Below are positions 18,654 to 26,934 of a stretch of DNA of 64,000 nucleotides, piece by piece (position 1 is the first letter of the stretch; each line of letters opens with the position of its first letter). Under the pieces are notes generated by a model, which saw only the letters and a program-made list of their open reading frames with translations, was not told where the DNA came from and made no database searches. Origin of the DNA: Persicimonas caeni (GTDB lineage Bacteria > Myxococcota_A > Bradymonadia > Bradymonadales > Bradymonadaceae); NCBI RefSeq assembly GCF_006517175.1, contig NZ_CP041186.1, forward strand, positions 1,116,001-1,180,000, given 5' to 3'. Made by a program: the position numbers and the translations under genes.

Positions 18654-20264
18654 TCAGCGGCTGCACTCCGAGTTGATGTTGAAGACATAGGCCCCCAACT
18701 CGTCTCGCCAGTATTCCCCGTCGAACGTCCAATACATTTGCTCGTCACTGATCTTAATCTCGGGCGAATCGGTGACATTCCCCTGGACGTTCATGCCCGC
18801 GCGGATGTCTGCCTCGATCTGGCCCTGCTCGGCGCGGGCGACCTCGAACGTGATCTCTTCCTTCTGCATGATCAGCTCTTCGAGCTCGCGCACCACACGC
18901 TGCAGGCGCTGCTGAGCTACGGTGCCAGCGTCGCTGACCGCGAAGCTCAACGCCAACTCGGACTCCTGCAAAAGCGAAGTTCCCAGCGGACTCGACTGCC
19001 AAGCGTCGGGCATGGTGCCGATCTTCTCTTTCTCTTTTCGAATCGTGTCGACGAGGTCGAACTTACGCTCGACCTGAGCGTCGTCCAGCGCAGCATCCAA
19101 GATCTGGTAGACCTGCGGGTCGAACTCGGCGCTGCCGCCTTCGAGCTTCTCGAGCCACTCGAACATTGCGGTCGGATCTTGATAGTCGGTCAATACCGCC
19201 TGCACATCGTCTTTGAGGGGAGCGTAGTAGTAATCGAAGTCCTCGAGTACGTAGCGCACACGCTCGTACTTGCAGTTGTAGAAGAAGATCACCGCCGACA
19301 GAATCGGCCCCTCGGGGAAGTAGGCGTCGGCGAAAAACGGCGAGTTCAGGCTGTGCAGGTTGCCCAGCGCCTTGTTGTAATCGTCGGTCTGGAAGAAGGC
19401 CCAGCTCGACTCGAACAGCGCCTGCGGCCAGCGCACCGAACTGCGGTCGATATTCGAGTAGTATTTGAGGCTCGTGCCGTAGTCGCCCGTCGAGTAGAAC
19501 ACGCGCGCCATGCCGAAGGTCGTCAGCTCCTTGAGCTCTTGCTCCTCGGGAGTCAGTGCTGTGCTCTCTTCTTTGGAGCGAAGGTGGGAGAGCACCGTCT
19601 TGAACTCTTGGACGGCGGGCTTGGCCTCGTAGTTGGCCACGTGGGTGATCGCAGCGATGTAGTGCGCCTTTCCATAGTGCTCACTGCGCTTGCTGACCGC
19701 GGTCAGAAGGCGAAGTGCTTCCGCATTGTTCATCTGCTGGTACAGATGGCGGCCTACCAAGTAGGCGAACTGGTCGCGGTACTTTTCGGGAACATCTTGC
19801 GGGTAATAGCTGGCGTAGGGAGCCAGTCGCTGCATCAGCGAGGGGTCACCGGGAATGACATCGGTCAACAGGACCAGGCCACGCAACGTGGGCAGATAAT
19901 ACGGGTGCGACTCTCCGGCGTCGACGATGCGGCCGAAGTAGCTCAAAGCCCCCTGATACAACTCCATTCGCAGCAGCGTCTTTCCGAGTTCATACTCGGC
20001 TTCGGGCACATAGGCCTCGGCGGCCACGTCTTCCGAGGAGACCACCTTGTAGAACATCAGGCTGGCCTCGTCGTACTTCTTCTGTTCGTAGAGCTTTTTG
20101 CCCTCGGCCAGAAGGTCCGCAAAGGGGCCGGTCTTCTCGGGAGAGGCTTCCTCTTCGACTTCTTCTTCGCCGAAGGACATCGTGCCCTGAGCCCCGGCCT
20201 GACTGACCGCGACTAGCTGGATAGCTAGGAGGACGAGAAAACCACTCAGAAAGCGCTTCGACAT
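18654..20264 (-). CDS. Exported TPR-like protein, GltC-like
   Basis: Predicted 536 aa from ATG 20264, with GGAG 8 nt upstream. The signal peptide SKRFLSGFLVLLAIQLVAVSQAGAQ is followed by an acidic segment and helical repeats typical of TPR scaffolds (FADLLAEGKKLYEQKKYDEA, LGKTLLRMELYQGALSYFG, GMARVFYSTGDYGTSLKYY). The C-terminal third has a long coiled-coil stretch (RVVRELEELIMQKEEITFEV) and ends in a Tyr/Trp-rich tail (QMYWTFDGEYWRDELGAYVF). It is the first large gene of the TPR cluster and sits 82 bp upstream of the GltD-like gene. GltC of Myxococcus is a periplasmic protein in the same complex; the link here rests on context and size and is tentative. Confidence 0.82.
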   Translation of the reverse strand: MSKRFLSGFLVLLAIQLVAVSQAGAQGTMSFGEEEVEEEASPEKTGPFADLLAEGKKLYEQKKYDEASLMFYKVVSSEDVAAEAYVPEAEYELGKTLLRMELYQGALSYFGRIVDAGESHPYYLPTLRGLVLLTDVIPGDPSLMQRLAPYASYYPQDVPEKYRDQFAYLVGRHLYQQMNNAEALRLLTAVSKRSEHYGKAHYIAAITHVANYEAKPAVQEFKTVLSHLRSKEESTALTPEEQELKELTTFGMARVFYSTGDYGTSLKYYSNIDRSSVRWPQALFESSWAFFQTDDYNKALGNLHSLNSPFFADAYFPEGPILSAVIFFYNCKYERVRYVLEDFDYYYAPLKDDVQAVLTDYQDPTAMFEWLEKLEGGSAEFDPQVYQILDAALDDAQVERKFDLVDTIRKEKEKIGTMPDAWQSSPLGTSLLQESELALSFAVSDAGTVAQQRLQRVVRELEELIMQKEEITFEVARAEQGQIEADIRAGMNVQGNVTDSPEIKISDEQMYWTFDGEYWRDELGAYVFNINSECSR

Positions 20265-20393
20265 GGATTTGGCTCCATGAAAAGATTCTAGTAGACGCGC
20301 AGGCGCTAACCTCGCGCAGATATTCATCAGGGTCTCTCGGTGCTGCTCGCCGCCCCGGCCAACGTGGTTACGCCGGCCAGTCGCAGACCGTCG

Positions 20394-20993: not shown

Positions 20994-21320
20994 TCACATG
21001 CTGTCGTCCGCTTCGGGCTCTTCTTCAGCCGCTTCTTCTTCCATCTCTTCGCCAGCTTCTTCAGCGGCTTCTTCGGTCTCTTCAGCGGCCTCTTCAGCGC
21101 CTTCCTCGACCTCTTCAGCAGCTTCTTCGGTTTCCTCAGCTGCTTCCTCGGCAGCCTCTTCGGTCTCCTCAGCAGCTTCTTCGGTCTCCTCTTCCATCGG
21201 CGCTTCCTGCTCCTTGACCTCTTCCTGAGCTTCGTCAGGCTTGGCTTCGCCGTTGCTGCAAGCGGTGGCGAACGAGAACGAGAGCGCGATCAAAGCGATC
21301 AACAGACTCTTGAGCTTCAT
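20994..21320 (-). CDS. Small Glu/Ala-repeat lipoprotein
   Basis: Predicted 108 aa from ATG 21320; AAGGAG lies 8 nt upstream, whereas an in-frame GTG overlaps that site. The signal peptide MKLKSLLIALIALSFSF ends in the lipobox ATACS. The mature protein is almost only Glu, Ala and Thr in repeats of the type EEAAEETEEAAEE, ending EPEADDSM. Such a sequence should form a highly acidic extended helix or coil anchored to the membrane. It is monocistronic: a strong terminator follows and a 360-bp gap precedes it. Function unknown; a periplasmic spacer or cation-binding role is only a guess. Confidence 0.82.
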   Translation of the reverse strand: MKLKSLLIALIALSFSFATACSNGEAKPDEAQEEVKEQEAPMEEETEEAAEETEEAAEEAAEETEEAAEEVEEGAEEAAEETEEAAEEAGEEMEEEAAEEEPEADDSM

Positions 21321-21682
21321 GGTTGTCACTCCTTAAACTTTTGGTGTGGGCCCAGGGTTTTCAACAAGCCAGTGCACGGCATGGCAACGTGTCGGTCAAC
21401 GGTCCCTGTGAACCACTTCAATCAACTGATTGTCACTGGCAAAGCCATACGTGCCAACAATATGCCTCTTTTGGGCTTAGCACGTTCCTATACATTTTCA
21501 AGAAATAAGTCCTCGTGTCTAGATAATTCTCATGGCAGCCCGATCTTTTTTGGAGGCGCAACCTGAGGAGCGGGCTTTGAACCCGCACTCGCCTGTTATA
21601 TAAACGCGGGAGCGCTCGCCGAGTCTTGTTGCTGCCGGCGAGCGATCGCAAGCTTGATTTCTCTCCGGCGGAGAAGCCTGTC
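21321..21682. other. Divergent intergenic region
   Basis: This 362-bp region separates the E/A-rich lipoprotein (minus) from the metalloprotease (plus) and must hold both promoters. It is AT-richer than its surroundings and contains TTATATAA near 21596 and a hairpin GCGGG-CTTTGAA-CCCGC near 21576. No gene or further named element is visible. Confidence 0.5.
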
Positions 21683-23272
21683 ATGTCGATTCATCGTCTG
21701 TCCTGTCGCATTGTTTGTACCCTTCTGTTCGTCGCGGCATTCGCCCCGGCTTCGGCCCTCGGCCAGCAAAAGGAGCAAGCCTCCGCCAACCCCGAAAGCA
21801 CTGCCGACGACGCCAAAGCTGGTGCCGACGCCAGCGGTGAGCGCCTGCTCGAAGAGGCGGCCGAGATCTCGGGCGAAGTCGCCAGGATCCGCGGCCTATC
21901 GCTCAAGCACGAAATCAAAAAGGGCATTCGCAACCGCGACCAACTCCGCAAGGTGCTCATCGAGCGGCTCGCCGAAGAGGTCACTGACGAAGATGTCGAA
22001 AACGAAGCCAAAGTTTTCAAGAAGTTAGGCTTGATGCCCGAGGACCTCGACTACAAGCAAACCTTGCTGGACGTGTTGACCGAGCAGATCGCCGGGTTTT
22101 ACGACCAAAACGCCAAAGAGCTGTACATCATGCAGGGGATCCCCCTGGAGTTGCAGCGACCGGCAATGGCTCATGAAATCTTCCACGCCATCCAAGACCA
22201 GCACTTCGACATCAAGCGCATGGTCGAGCCGATCAGCAGCAAGGAGAACGGTGATTTCGCCTTGGCACGCTCGGCGCTCATCGAGGGCGACGCCAGTGTG
22301 GTGATGATCGACTTCTCGTTGTACGAGGAAGGCGTTCTGCCGCGCGACCAAGTGCGCAGCATCATCGACATTCCCATGATGGCCAACGTCCTCACGCAGT
22401 TGACCCGGGAGGATATCGGAGCTCTGCAACAGATGGTCCCTCAGGGGACAAACCCCTCCTCTCCGGTCGATCCGTCGCAGCTGTCCGAGTCGGCCTTGGC
22501 CGACGCACCGCGCATGATCCGCAAGCTCCTCGTATTTCCCTACTTTGGGGGCATGCGTTTCGTAATCAAGACCCGCTTGGGGCATGACTGGGAGCGCGTC
22601 AATCAAGTTTACAAGAACCCGCCCGTCTCCACCGAGCAGATCTTGCACCCGGAACGCTACTTCGCCGGAGACGAGCCCGTGCGTCTCGACTACAACGTCG
22701 AGCCGACCTTCGAAGACGACGCACTCATCTACGACAGCGTGTTGGGCGAGTACCAGATGCGCTTGGTCCTCGAAGAGCATCTGCTCGAGGGCGAAGACGG
22801 CCAGAAGAATCGTGCCCCGCTCGACAAGGCGCTCGATGGCTGGGACGGCGACCGGCTGCGCGCCTACGAGACGTCCGAGGGCCAAACCCTCATTTCGCAT
22901 CTGAGCGTCTGGGATTCTCTCGACGACGCTGACGAATACTTCGACGCGCTCGTCGAGATGATGAAGGTGCGTTATCCCGACGCGAAGTTGACTCACAACC
23001 GCGGCAAGTACGGCCAGTCCGTGTGCATGCGCGCCGGCGAAGGCGATGAGGCCGAGCGCATCTATCTCGAGCAATGGGGTGACCTGGTGCTGCATCTCGA
23101 AGGCGCTCCCACCAAGCTCGACGCCAAGGGCAAAGAGACCGACACCACCGCTTATATCCTCCGGGAGCGCATCATGCGCACCGTCGAGCGCACGCCCTTC
23201 GCAGAAGTCTACGAGCAGAAGGTCGAGGCTTACGACGCCGAGGCGGCGACCAAGGATGCGAGCGACCGGTAG
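21683..23272 (+). CDS. Exported HExxH zinc metalloprotease-like protein, family not recognised
   Basis: Predicted 529 aa from ATG 21683 (GGAG 10 nt upstream). The N-terminus is a signal peptide (CTLLFVAAFAPASALGQ). After a charged helical region comes TEQIAGFYDQNAKELYIMQ and then MAHEIFHAIQDQHFD, with HExxH at residues 164-168. A conserved-looking LIEGDAS follows with Glu201, 37 residues downstream, a good gluzincin-type third zinc ligand. The C-terminal 300 residues contain mixed alpha/beta sequence without a domain I recognise. It is most likely a periplasmic or secreted peptidase. It stands alone on the plus strand and converges with yraN. The assignment as a peptidase rests on the motif alone. 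Confidence 0.8.
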   Translation: MSIHRLSCRIVCTLLFVAAFAPASALGQQKEQASANPESTADDAKAGADASGERLLEEAAEISGEVARIRGLSLKHEIKKGIRNRDQLRKVLIERLAEEVTDEDVENEAKVFKKLGLMPEDLDYKQTLLDVLTEQIAGFYDQNAKELYIMQGIPLELQRPAMAHEIFHAIQDQHFDIKRMVEPISSKENGDFALARSALIEGDASVVMIDFSLYEEGVLPRDQVRSIIDIPMMANVLTQLTREDIGALQQMVPQGTNPSSPVDPSQLSESALADAPRMIRKLLVFPYFGGMRFVIKTRLGHDWERVNQVYKNPPVSTEQILHPERYFAGDEPVRLDYNVEPTFEDDALIYDSVLGEYQMRLVLEEHLLEGEDGQKNRAPLDKALDGWDGDRLRAYETSEGQTLISHLSVWDSLDDADEYFDALVEMMKVRYPDAKLTHNRGKYGQSVCMRAGEGDEAERIYLEQWGDLVLHLEGAPTKLDAKGKETDTTAYILRERIMRTVERTPFAEVYEQKVEAYDAEAATKDASDR

Positions 23273-23290: not shown

Positions 23291-23719
23291 CTACCAGACC
23301 CGCCCGTCAGCATCGAACGCACAGGGAAAATGCGTCAGCTTCGGCTCTTCGCCGCTCAGGTCGATGGCAATGACGTCGAAGCGAACGTTGACCTTGCGAA
23401 CCTTCTCTTTTTGCAGATACACCTTCGCCAGGCGCACCAACCGCCCACGTTTGCGGGCGTTGACCGAAGCTTCCGGAGGCGGCCCCAATGGGGTGCGCTT
23501 GGTCTTGACCTCGACAAACGCCAGTGTCTGCTCCATTCGGTGGCCCACCTTGCCGTAGCGGCTGGCCACCATGTCCAACTCGCCCATCTTGAGGGTGTAG
23601 TTGCGGTGCAAGACCTCCCAACCCAACTCGCGCATATGTTCGGCAGCGAGATCTTCGCCAGCCATCCCAATTTCGCGACGCGGGTCAAGGTCTTTCGAGT
23701 CGTCTTTCGTCTGTTCCAT
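23291..23719 (-). CDS. yraN: YraN/UPF0102 family nuclease-like protein
   Basis: Predicted 142 aa from ATG 23719 with GGAG 8 nt upstream; an earlier in-frame GTG has no better signal. The sequence follows the UPF0102 pattern: GMAGEDLAAEHMRELGWEVL, RNYTLKMGELDMVA and LAFVEVKTKRTPLG, with the GELD and EVK residues forming a PD-(D/E)xK-like nuclease core, then a helical tail with KVYLQKEKVR. The family is found next to rnhB in many genomes, as here. Cellular role is poorly defined; nucleic-acid processing is assumed. The ~140-bp leader upstream contains a 37-nt motif that recurs elsewhere in the window. Confidence 0.92.
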   Translation of the reverse strand: MEQTKDDSKDLDPRREIGMAGEDLAAEHMRELGWEVLHRNYTLKMGELDMVASRYGKVGHRMEQTLAFVEVKTKRTPLGPPPEASVNARKRGRLVRLAKVYLQKEKVRKVNVRFDVIAIDLSGEEPKLTHFPCAFDADGRVW

Positions 23720-23755
23720 CTCGTTTTCTCCACGGAAGAGTGACACACGGTCCCT

Positions 23756-23860: not shown

Positions 23861-24535
23861 CTATTTGCGGAGCTTGTCGCGGTATTCGCGCACACCACCG
23901 AACGTGAGCCGGTGGATGGGACAAGGTCCGTACTCGGCAACCGCATCGCGGTGCTGCTTGGTAGGATAGCCTTTGTTGCTGGCAAACCCGTATTCCGGCC
24001 ACTGTTCGTGATGGCGCGCCATGACCTCGTCACGGGAAACCTTCGCCAGAATACTGGCCGCCGCGATGGCTCGGCTACGTGCATCGCCTTTGACGACCGC
24101 GCGCTGCGGGAGCGACAGTTTGACGGGCATATTGCCGTCGATGAAGACGTAATCGGGAGGACCGTCGAGTTGCTCACACACCTCAGCGACGGCCGCCTCC
24201 ATGGCGCGATGAGTCGCCTGGAGAATATTGATTTCGTCGATCACGGCATGATCGCTGAACGTGATACTGAAAGCCGGCGCCGAAGCTTGGATGAGTTCGA
24301 AGGCCTCTTCACGGCGCGTTTGCTCGAGCTTTTTGGAGTCGTCGAGCAGTTCGAGCCAAGGCTCTTCGAGCGCTTCGAGATCTATTGCGACTGCCGACGC
24401 ATAAACCGGACCGGCCAATGGGCCTCGCCCGGCCTCGTCGACGCCGATGATAAACCGGTAGCCCTGGGAGACACACCAGTCTTCGAGTTCGCCGATGACC
24501 GGCTCGCCTTTCTGAAAGAGATTCTGCTGACTCAT
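23861..24535 (-). CDS. rnhB: Ribonuclease HII
   Basis: Predicted 224 aa from ATG 24535; an in-frame GTG at 24559 overlaps the end of the preceding gene. It cleaves the RNA strand of RNA-DNA hybrids and removes misincorporated ribonucleotides in the cytoplasm. Visible motifs: GVDEAGRGPLAGPV with the catalytic Asp-Glu, DDSKKLEQTRRE, YVFIDGN and ARSRAIAAASILAKVSRDE, the full RNase HII set. The start codon is 11 nt after the stop of the SMC-like gene, so the two are probably co-transcribed. The rplS...rnhB-yraN order is common in proteobacteria. Confidence 0.97.
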   Translation of the reverse strand: MSQQNLFQKGEPVIGELEDWCVSQGYRFIIGVDEAGRGPLAGPVYASAVAIDLEALEEPWLELLDDSKKLEQTRREEAFELIQASAPAFSITFSDHAVIDEINILQATHRAMEAAVAEVCEQLDGPPDYVFIDGNMPVKLSLPQRAVVKGDARSRAIAAASILAKVSRDEVMARHHEQWPEYGFASNKGYPTKQHRDAVAEYGPCPIHRLTFGGVREYRDKLRK

Positions 24536-24546
24536 GGACGGTCGGT

Positions 24547-26292
24547 TTATCCGCTGCACAATACGATATGACTCTTCTTCGCGGCGCTCTCGAACACCTC
24601 GTCGAAGGCGTCTGAGACATTCGAACCGAAGTCGTCACGCGGGTCATTGACCCAGATGGTCTCGAAGTAGCCCCCCGAACGATCGGCGGTGTTCACGTGA
24701 AGCGCCAGCGCCAAGGCCGCCTTGACGATACGCTCTTCAGAGCTTCGCGTGCGTCGCCACATCTCGAGCTTATCGTCGCTCAGATCGCGAACGCGCAAGT
24801 CGCCCTCGGGCGAAAGCTCCACACCCTTGAACCGATTGCCGAGCACGTGCCCACAGATCTTGCCCCACATCTTGCGGGTTCGAGACTGCAATCCACTCGC
24901 AGTCCACTGCCCCGTGCGCTCGGCGGCCAACTTGAGTCGACCGAATGCAGTCTGGGGCACCTCTTCGGGCTCGTCGTCTTCGTCGTCAGAAAGGGCGTCG
25001 GCTGGCTCGATGCCAAGGCTCTGCAGATCGTTCTCGAGCTGGAAGGTCGACATGACGAACTCCGGAAGCAACGTGCGCTCGGCCTCTAGATCCTCGAGCT
25101 CTTCCTCGAGTTCGGCGATCGTGGCTGCCGCGGCTTTGTAGGTAGGATCGCGGCGTGCTTCCGTGGCTTTGGCCTCGAGTTGCTCGATGATCTGCTCGAG
25201 CTTGCTGGTCTTCTCGACGCGGACGAACAATTCCTCTTCGTTCTCGACACCCGCGTGAATCAACAGATGATTGATCTGCTCGCGAAACGAGACTTCCTCT
25301 TCGCGCACCTGGTTGAGGCGGCGCTTGATCGATTCTAGGCGCACTTGGTGCACACTGGCCCGTTCGAGATCGGTGAAGTACTTGAGCAACACCCAGGCAA
25401 CCATGCCGAAGCCGACGACATTGACCGCGGCGGCCTGTCTCAGCGTGTCGTGCATGCCGACCGACACCCCGAGCGCGGCCACGCCGATCGCCAGTCCGGC
25501 CCAGAAGAGCGGCACCTTCCAAGGACGATCGGGCAGCTTTCGCTCCACGTCGATGCGCTCGTCTTCTTCCTGGCGAATCAGACGATCGAGCTGGTGGTCG
25601 AACTCCTCGAAGCGCTCGTCCTTCTCCGATAACAGAGACAGATCTTCCTCGGAGAGATCATCGAGTCGCAATTGCTCGAGCTTGGCTTTCGCCTGCTCGA
25701 GCTTCTCTTCGATCTTGGCGCCGGTGCCGAGTTGTTTGCGTTGCTCGGCAATCTTGCCCTCGATATTCTTGATTCGGTCCTCGAGTGTTTCGACACGCAC
25801 GGCGGTGCGATACTTCTCGACGAGCTCACGGCCGCGCTCGTCGAGTGCAGCAGCGCCGTTCGCGGGGTCGTAGAGCTCGTCGTCGTCGAATCGCCAGAGG
25901 TTCAGCGCTGCAAAGGACTCGAAGTCCGGCAGACCGAGTTCGCCGGCCAACGCTTCGACCGTGGCATCCTCGCCCTTGGCGAGGCCGGTATAGCCCCCCT
26001 CGCCTTTTCTCTGTAGACGCAGCGACGACGGCTTGCCTCGGCGCAGCACGCGATACTCTTTGTCATCTTGCTCGAACACCACCGCCAACTTGATCGTGCC
26101 GTCCTGCTTCAACTGCTCGTCCAGCGGCGAAGGCACACGGGAGGGGTACAGTAGCGCGATGACAAGCGCGTGAACGTCGGCGGTCGTCAGGTCCGACGGA
26201 AGACTCATCCGGTCGACGCCGGGGGCCGTGGCCAGCCGGACCGGCGACTCGCAACCGAATACACCTTGGAATATGATCTCTCGGATTCGCAT
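24547..26292 (-). CDS. Coiled-coil membrane protein resembling a degenerate SMC/YhaN-type ATPase
   Basis: Predicted 581 aa from ATG 26292. The start MRIREIIFQGVFGCESPVRL recalls the first strand of RecF/SMC/YhaN ATPases, but where the Walker A loop should be (residues ~25-45, PGVDRMSLPSDLTTADV) no GxxGKS/T is present. Residues 160-250 and 310-420 are coiled coil, and two membrane spans lie between them (about 258-278 and 287-306). The C-terminal part has an ABC-signature-like LSDDKLEMWRR, a following ALALALHVN and a Walker-B-like ETIWVNDPRDDFGS. The layout mimics YhaN with a membrane hairpin in the coil but has lost nucleotide-binding residues. It sits between rplS and rnhB; function unknown. 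Confidence 0.85.
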   Translation of the reverse strand: MRIREIIFQGVFGCESPVRLATAPGVDRMSLPSDLTTADVHALVIALLYPSRVPSPLDEQLKQDGTIKLAVVFEQDDKEYRVLRRGKPSSLRLQRKGEGGYTGLAKGEDATVEALAGELGLPDFESFAALNLWRFDDDELYDPANGAAALDERGRELVEKYRTAVRVETLEDRIKNIEGKIAEQRKQLGTGAKIEEKLEQAKAKLEQLRLDDLSEEDLSLLSEKDERFEEFDHQLDRLIRQEEDERIDVERKLPDRPWKVPLFWAGLAIGVAALGVSVGMHDTLRQAAAVNVVGFGMVAWVLLKYFTDLERASVHQVRLESIKRRLNQVREEEVSFREQINHLLIHAGVENEEELFVRVEKTSKLEQIIEQLEAKATEARRDPTYKAAAATIAELEEELEDLEAERTLLPEFVMSTFQLENDLQSLGIEPADALSDDEDDEPEEVPQTAFGRLKLAAERTGQWTASGLQSRTRKMWGKICGHVLGNRFKGVELSPEGDLRVRDLSDDKLEMWRRTRSSEERIVKAALALALHVNTADRSGGYFETIWVNDPRDDFGSNVSDAFDEVFESAAKKSHIVLCSG

Positions 26293-26357
26293 ACGTGCAG
26301 TTTAGCGCCGCTGGCGGGCTGTTGTCTACCGCTTTGGTACACGTCGGCGATGAACGC

Positions 26358-26404
26358 AAAAAGCCAGCGGCCCGCCGATAGAAAAAGGCGGGCGCTGGCT
26401 TTTT
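26358..26404 (-). terminator. Terminator after rplS
   Basis: GCCAGCG(g)CCCGCC (26363-26376) pairs with GGCGGGCGCTGGC (26387-26399), a 13-bp stem with one bulged G. A-tract on the left and T-tract on the right make it usable on both strands. It separates the ribosomal genes from the SMC-like gene. Confidence 0.85.
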
Positions 26405-26429
26405 ACGCAGTCTTCAAAGGCGAACGAAC

Positions 26430-26789
26430 TCAGACGCCCTTACGCTCGCGCTTGCTGCGGATACGCGCCGACTTACCGGTGCGCTCACGCAGGTAGTAGA
26501 GCTTGGCGCGGCGCACGCGGCCGATGTTGCCCAACTCGATCTTCTCGATACGCGGGCTGTGCACCGGGAAGATACGCTCGACGCCGATGCCGCCGGCCGA
26601 GATCTTGCGCACGGTGAAGGTCTCTTTGAGGCCGGAGCCGCTTCGGCCCAGGACGACACCTTCGAACACCTGGACGCGCTCTTTGTCACCCTCGCGAATG
26701 CGGAGGTGGACGCGCACGGTATCACCGGAGCGGAAGTGAGGAACGTCCTCGCGAAGCTGCTGCTCTTCAATCTTGTCAATAAGGCTCAT
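26430..26789 (-). CDS. rplS: 50S ribosomal protein L19
   Basis: Predicted 119 aa from ATG 26789 (GGAG 8 nt upstream). L19 lies at the 30S-50S interface. Diagnostic stretches: [59 protein letters not shown] and [18 protein letters not shown]. Length and motifs are normal. It is preceded by trmD with a 145-bp gap that may contain its own promoter, and is followed by a strong terminator. This is the standard rpsP-rimM-trmD-rplS order. Confidence 0.98.
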
Positions 26790-26934
26790 GGTTCGTCTCC
26801 ACCGTTGTGTGGCGGTCAATCGATTTTATGGCTCGTCCGTTCCGACGGCAGGGCCGGCGAAACCGGGGTTACACTAGTTGGACCCTCGCCAAGGGCGGGG
26901 TGATGTAACACGACACCCGAGCGAAGTAAAGACG

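Follow-up and report, generated by a model that had tools for sequence, protein, structure and literature searches.

Can a protein built on the plan of an SMC-type ATPase be retained by bacteria once its ATP site is gone? Rad50, SMC and related proteins are viewed as clamps and motors that run on ATP. The question is raised by an open reading frame of Persicimonas caeni, located in a stretch of 64,000 nucleotides (hereafter the window; contig NZ_CP041186.1, positions 1,116,001 to 1,180,000), which an original prediction made from the sequence had described as an SMC/YhaN-like protein that lost its Walker A motif, gained a membrane hairpin and might serve as a structural pseudo-ATPase. A literature search retrieved no work joining the terms 'SMC-like' and 'pseudo-ATPase', and no such protein by title or by the opening of the abstract.

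Locus and gene neighborhood

The frame begins with ATG, encodes 581 residues and lies on the minus strand between rplS, itself preceded by trmD, and the rnhB-yraN pair, with the following features:

26430 to 26819, minus strand: rplS (ribosomal protein L19), conserved upstream neighbor
26354 to 26408, minus strand: strong terminator-like hairpin in the interval between rplS and the pseudo-ATPase gene (-41 kcal/mol, z -8.3)
26299 to 26328, minus strand: weak sigma-70-like match ahead of the gene, by consensus only
24547 to 26292, minus strand: putative membrane pseudo-ATPase coding sequence (581 aa, stop codon included; open reading frame and homologues)
23861 to 24559, minus strand: rnhB (RNase HII), conserved downstream neighbor, overlapping the 3' end of the gene in its longest reading
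23291 to 23746, minus strand: yraN (UPF0102), conserved downstream neighbor

Given the terminator-like hairpin after rplS and the sigma-70-like match, the gene is probably the first of a separate transcription unit that continues into rnhB and yraN. The genome is a single contig of 8,047,206 bases; one account of the order mentions three complete Bradymonadales genomes, strain YN101 among them, ranging from 5.0 to 8.0 Mb in size (PMC7460792).

Three further frames of the same neighborhood are recorded here in their own right. A 548-residue protein with an HExxH motif (HEIFHAIQDQHF; 21626-23272, plus strand) is syntenic downstream of yraN in many genomes of family f1 and has no Pfam match at E<=0.01; a TPR-like protein of 557 residues (18654-20327, minus strand) keeps its synteny near yraN throughout the class; and a repetitive, very acidic protein with a lipoprotein-like N-terminal start (EEAAEETEEAAEE; 20994-21329, minus strand) found no match in a Pfam search.

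The ATP site is degenerate throughout the family

Over its first 50 residues the protein runs collinear with YhaN as far as LLYG/LLYP, ungapped for several sequences, and the position of the YhaN GPNEAGKST loop is occupied by LPSDLTTAD. A motif scan of the 581 residues finds neither GxxxxGK[ST] nor GK[ST], and a survey of orthologues extends this absence to the whole family: GxxxxGK[ST] occurs in 0/35 near-full-length members (two others, L012 and L149, run to contig ends), and the lysine column never holds K (0/35). The remaining nucleotide-binding elements are similarly eroded, with D in the Walker B Mg-Asp column of 1/31 members, an acidic residue (D or E) in the next column, the second Walker B position, of 19/31, and no His in the H-loop column of the family alignment. 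In the window protein the corresponding segments are:

26179 to 26202, minus strand: place of the Walker A loop, LPSDLTTA (residues 31-38), with T at the lysine position (alignment)
24769 to 24783, minus strand: LSDDK (residues 504-508), at most where a degenerate ABC signature region begins (alignment)
24640 to 24663, minus strand: ETIWVNDP (residues 544-551), degenerate Walker B strand (profile and alignment)

The missing Walker A of the original prediction is thus a family-wide trait, no orthologue with an intact motif having been found among the 35 members, and its Walker-B-like reading of ETIWVNDP stands in degenerate form. Its signature-like reading of LSDDK has to be narrowed, since the post-signature helix of the predicted model begins near residue 517, so that this segment can at most start a degenerate signature region. 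Members outside the class retain what look like remnants of the motifs: the outgroup genome G057 shows RGDQAKTN at the loop and AGGEQ close to the signature, and members of family f32 show, for instance, APDEQAAAG and LDAEEQTIVLTAFRIA at the corresponding places. We read this pattern as a probable stepwise loss of the ATP site from a YhaN/Rad50-like ATPase. The loss of these motifs suggests that the family does not bind ATP.

A predicted Rad50-type head

Searched alone, the window protein matches nothing above cut-off in Pfam, NCBIfam or the PDB sequences, and in Pfam searches with the members of alignment A1 none of the 25 families listed, out of 31, is a head family. Structure prediction from A1 (26 homologues) yielded an AlphaFold2 model with a mean pLDDT of 86.4 and a pTM of 0.52, in which the two ends of the chain form a head:

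25900 to 26292, minus strand: Rad50/SMC-type head, N-terminal half (residues 1-131; AlphaFold2 and VIA-align)
24550 to 24948, minus strand: head, C-terminal half (residues 449-581; AlphaFold2, VIA-align and A1-profile PDB search)

Aligned by VIA-align to Thermotoga maritima Rad50 (3tho_A), the model scores Z 20.8 with an rmsd of 3.2 A over 260 residues, well over the program's own level for chance helical matches; the first 14 rows of the ranking are Rad50/SbcC, followed by SMC heads (Z 14.8-17.5). Foldseek likewise returns Rad50, Lamassu LmuB (9hqu_A, E 2.2e-7) and JetC as leading matches, and structure matches in BFVD include Rad50/SMC-type nuclease subunits from phage. A separate AlphaFold2 model of the outgroup member L150 (561 aa, alignment A4, mean pLDDT 81.2) aligns to Rad50 3qf7_A at Z 22.4, with an rmsd of 3.8 over 273 residues. 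At the sequence level, the best match of the A1 profile among 177,635 PDB sequences is Methanocaldococcus jannaschii Rad50 (E 2.5e-4), with the C-lobe and Walker B region in register, and residues 42-88 of Pyrococcus furiosus Rad50 align with profile positions 42-86 (E 0.045). Overall, the SMC/YhaN-type layout proposed for this protein is borne out, the comparison with ABC-type heads having returned a Rad50/SMC head and no unrelated fold, and membership of the family in the Rad50/SMC superfamily is well supported.

Residues W133, W476, W512, T515, R516 and E519 of the head are among those invariant across 15 f1 members. Most of the family's head lobes are acidic or neutral (pI 4.7 for the N-lobe and 5.3 for the C-lobe of the window protein), which does not appear to favor DNA binding, although the N-lobes of SMC and SbcC from the same genome are likewise acidic or neutral (pI 4.6 for SMC).

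A predicted membrane hairpin at the apex of the coiled coil

Between the two halves of the head, the chain forms two coiled-coil arms joined by a hydrophobic hairpin:

25537 to 25839, minus strand: outgoing coiled-coil arm (residues 152-252; AlphaFold2 model)
25381 to 25512, minus strand: membrane hairpin between the arms (residues 261-304; model and hydropathy)
25072 to 25380, minus strand: returning coiled-coil arm (residues 305-407; AlphaFold2 model)

The two membrane spans claimed for the coil are accordingly present as hydrophobic helices between residues 152-252 and 305-407 (residues 262-278 and 287-303, with Kyte-Doolittle 17-residue means of 2.09 and 2.08). They lie midway between arms of about 100 residues each, at the coil apex, where Rad50 carries its zinc hook; a CxxC zinc hook is found in 0/35 members. 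Two hydrophobic segments exceed the threshold in 26/32 members and one in the other 6, and at a stricter threshold the three f32 members show two segments in two cases and one in the third. At 0.15 nm per residue each arm would measure about 15 nm, and the hairpin suggests an inner-membrane location.

That the hairpin was gained is not borne out: distant members of the family and two YhaN-type ATPases of the phylum with intact Walker A have one as well, so that this element was more likely inherited.

Distribution, genomic slot and selection

The window protein used alone as a query in a contig scan found nothing; the same scan with alignment A2 returned 11 loci. A protein search detected homologues in 26/57 near genomes, the A1 profile in 30/283 genomes of the phylum (E<=1e-4) and the A3 profile in 49/377 genomes (E<=1e-3), of which 37 were accepted as members by frame and place. 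The 12 excluded genomes comprise G179 and G213, whose multi-pass coiled-coil proteins resemble chain-length regulators by eye; G001 and G216, which carry intact LmuB-like ATPases; G045, where the match falls within its SMC; and G074, G116, G215, G219, G223, G306 and G342, with short weak matches (for G074, one stretch was scanned by tblastn).

Members span seven families of one phylum. Within the class the gene is present in 19/21 genomes of f1, 5/5 of f2, 1/1 of f6, 5/6 of f4 and 3/13 of f3, and in none of f5 (0/8) or f7 (0/3); outside it, G057 and three f32 genomes carry it. The two f1 genomes without the gene have no rplS match either. Named carriers include Lujinxingia vulgaris TMQ2, together with a Lujinxingiaceae MAG.

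The original prediction located the gene correctly between rplS and rnhB and called the spot unexpected; the second part does not hold, as the gene directly follows rplS in 36/37 genomes, the remaining contig beginning inside the gene. In 27/37 genomes rnhB comes next. Genomes that lack the gene often have rplS adjoining rnhB (e.g. G045, G051, G043), and in f5 other genes occupy the slot downstream of rplS. There (L076-L082) we observe a frame of about 340 residues with zinc-ribbon-like and FHA-like parts by eye, followed by a signal-peptidase-like frame. Three f3 loci (L084, L087 and L093, in G038, G026 and G032) hold shortened forms of about 400 residues between rplS and yraN, in which the coil is largely gone and much of the C-lobe is missing; tblastn found no rnhB near them.

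In a FastTree phylogeny of 35 members all five multi-member families are monophyletic (support 0.71-1.0), and the family looks vertically inherited; the deep branches are long and we place no trust in their order. Three pairs from one genus (90-92% amino acid identity, dS 0.57-0.79) give dN/dS values of 0.07, 0.11 and 0.07, indicating by computation that the gene is under purifying selection there, pairs beyond this genus being near saturation. A search for a viral relative of the family found none, and no conserved partner gene apart from the housekeeping neighbors was found around its members.

YhaN-type ATPases as the probable nearest intact relatives

At E<=1e-12 the YhaN family PF13514 matches 15/114 genomes of the phylum, none among the f1 genomes searched. 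The window protein has no match to it at E<=1, and a whole-genome search at this cut-off gave 22 places, none at this locus. Since it has neither a PF13514 match nor a Walker A, it is not filed as a YhaN.

Of 12 YhaN stretches, 11 yielded a near-complete protein, and in two of these (L129, 886 aa, and L130, 875 aa) an intact Walker A is combined with a mid-coil hairpin. A calcineurin-like phosphoesterase gene, as would be expected for YhaO, lies directly upstream of both hairpin YhaN (the L156 copy scores just below Pfam's cut-off). Membrane helices are also carried by Bacillus subtilis YhaN. The staphylococcal protein is listed as a membrane protein in one source (PMC7137321). The two loci of intact-Walker-A hairpin ATPases, each directly downstream of a YhaO/Mre11-like gene (L155:4721-8640 in G119 and L156:4212-7969 in G148), represent a membrane-bound nuclease-ATPase pair deserving study.

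Compared by hhalign lobe by lobe, the family aligns to YhaN with P 1.1e-4 for the N-lobe and P 0.0038 for the C-lobe (0.53 and 0.25 in reversed controls); the full-length comparison is weak (P 0.0064, and P 0.23 against the two hairpin YhaN). Among 20 single sequences the family profile ranks three YhaN at the top, followed by SMC and LmuB-like heads, with other YhaN low, and the C-terminal part of the A1 profile weakly matches intact LmuB-like ATPases (E 9.3e-6 and 1.6e-5). Loci L060 and L061 hold intact SMC-type LmuB-like ATPases whose C-lobe is weakly matched by the family profile. A helix break in the returning arm, 'hAGVxxExEL', was discarded both as a YhaN-like mark, being present in only some YhaN, and as a family mark, being found at that place only in the window protein among seven members. 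The nearest intact relatives thus seem to be YhaN-type ATPases, and YhaN ancestry, the best of close choices, is likely on these alignments but not proven.

Alternative explanations

The broken ATP-site motifs could mark a decaying or damaged ATPase gene peculiar to this one genome, and the forms of about 400 residues in three f3 genomes do resemble erosion there. However, Walker A is missing from all 35 members, the frame is open throughout seven families whose five multi-member representatives are each monophyletic, and dN/dS is 0.07-0.11; for f1 the survey and dN/dS refute damage, and we regard it as extremely improbable overall. Little credence can be given to an unrelated coiled-coil membrane protein with a mere SMC resemblance, in spite of the lack of Pfam, NCBIfam or single-sequence PDB matches above cut-off, as the 260 residues of the head aligned with Rad50 score Z 20.8 and both lobes are in register with Rad50/YhaN. 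A role as a defense subunit, in a Lamassu-like (LmuB) or some other system, suggested by weak PADLOC matches to LmuB (2.1e-5) and by the Foldseek matches to LmuB and JetC, is comparably improbable: in the window protein the PADLOC match covers residues 318-406 of the coiled coil, and the family occupies a fixed housekeeping slot, is apparently inherited vertically and has no viral relative that we could find.

Two further readings concern the head itself. The acidic residue at the second Walker B position (19/31 members) and the loop and signature remnants of G057 would be compatible with continued nucleotide binding and cycling in a pocket of unusual type; with the Walker A lysine absent from 35 members, the Mg-Asp reduced to 1/31 and no H-loop His, we consider this very unlikely. 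The family could also act as the ATP-dead partner in a heterodimer: docked on the head of an intact Rad50/SbcC or SMC, its own head would bring that ATPase to the membrane and serve as regulator or receptor. The retained head fold and conserved head residues agree with such a role, and partners are available (SbcD in 48/57 and SMC in 36/57 class genomes), but the gene is not linked to sbcCD or smc, its presence tracks neither, and f2 and f6 have it yet show no SMC_prok_B match at E<=1e-30, which leaves this reading unlikely. Replacement of SbcCD or SMC by the pseudo-ATPase was discarded because both are widespread in the class and show no such tracking.

A proposed ATP-independent tether

The open frame, the loss of ATP motifs, the predicted head fold, the position of the hairpin, purifying selection and the fixed slot, each established computationally, support a model where the family is a conserved, ATP-dead, membrane-anchored branch of the Rad50/SMC/YhaN superfamily that quite probably serves, without ATP, as a tether or docking platform. 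The N- and C-terminal halves would build a Rad50-type head, predicted to be cytoplasmic, from which an antiparallel coiled coil with arms some 100 residues long would reach the inner membrane, a two-helix hairpin in the membrane replacing the zinc hook or hinge. Such a protein would most likely descend from a YhaN-type ATPase partnered with a YhaO/Mre11-like nuclease, having lost ATP binding and the nuclease partner and retained head, coil and membrane anchor.

Without ATP, head engagement could not be switched as in Rad50, and since related bacteria kept the ATP-dead version, its job probably needs no ATP. As head shape, a set of head residues, coil and anchor are what is conserved, a standing role suggests itself, in which the platform would hold a cytoplasmic partner some 15 nm off the membrane; this partner may be DNA or a second protein, for instance a Rad50/SMC-type head that is still active. 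The structural role suggested in the original prediction stays at the level of a proposal. A more specific version, in which this lineage-wide Rad50/SMC-type protein with an anchor in place of hook or hinge tethers the membrane to the chromosome or to a repair complex independently of ATP, is possible and is put forward tentatively. If the model is correct, an SMC-type head and coil can persist for long without any ATP cycle, and a family under selection without an ATP site would part the scaffold role of Rad50/SMC folds from the contribution of ATP. It is also a candidate, open to testing, for a protein linking membrane and nucleoid in bradymonads and related bacteria; since Lujinxingia vulgaris TMQ2, a named strain, carries the gene, deleting or tagging it there may be practicable.

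Comparison with known systems

With Rad50/SbcC the pseudo-ATPase shares the head fold of the predicted model, the two-lobed plan and the antiparallel coiled coil, but it differs in having neither intact Walker A and Walker B motifs nor a CxxC zinc hook, in the membrane hairpin at its apex and in the absence of a linked mre11/sbcD, sbcD being present elsewhere in the same genome. Condensin-type SMC proteins resemble it in head fold (Z 14.8-17.5) and coiled coil, whereas its own coil is short, its ATP site is lost and two hydrophobic helices stand at the apex in place of a globular hinge. Lamassu LmuB similarly has a Rad50-type head and coil, yet the PADLOC LmuB models match only the coil of the window protein and not its head, and the pseudo-ATPase gene sits in a housekeeping slot. 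The closest likeness seems to be to YhaN, with which the N-terminal 50 residues are collinear and both lobes in register (a register not exclusive to YhaN), and some of whose members (L129, L130) carry a mid-coil membrane hairpin. Compared to these ATPases of 870-1180 residues, the pseudo-ATPase is reduced to about 580, has no Walker A of the GPNEAGKS type and no PF13514 match, and its Walker B and signature are degenerate. Finally, it occupies a fixed slot after rplS with no YhaO-like gene nearby: tblastn with the YhaO of G119 matched both YhaN control stretches and 0/48 stretches around members.
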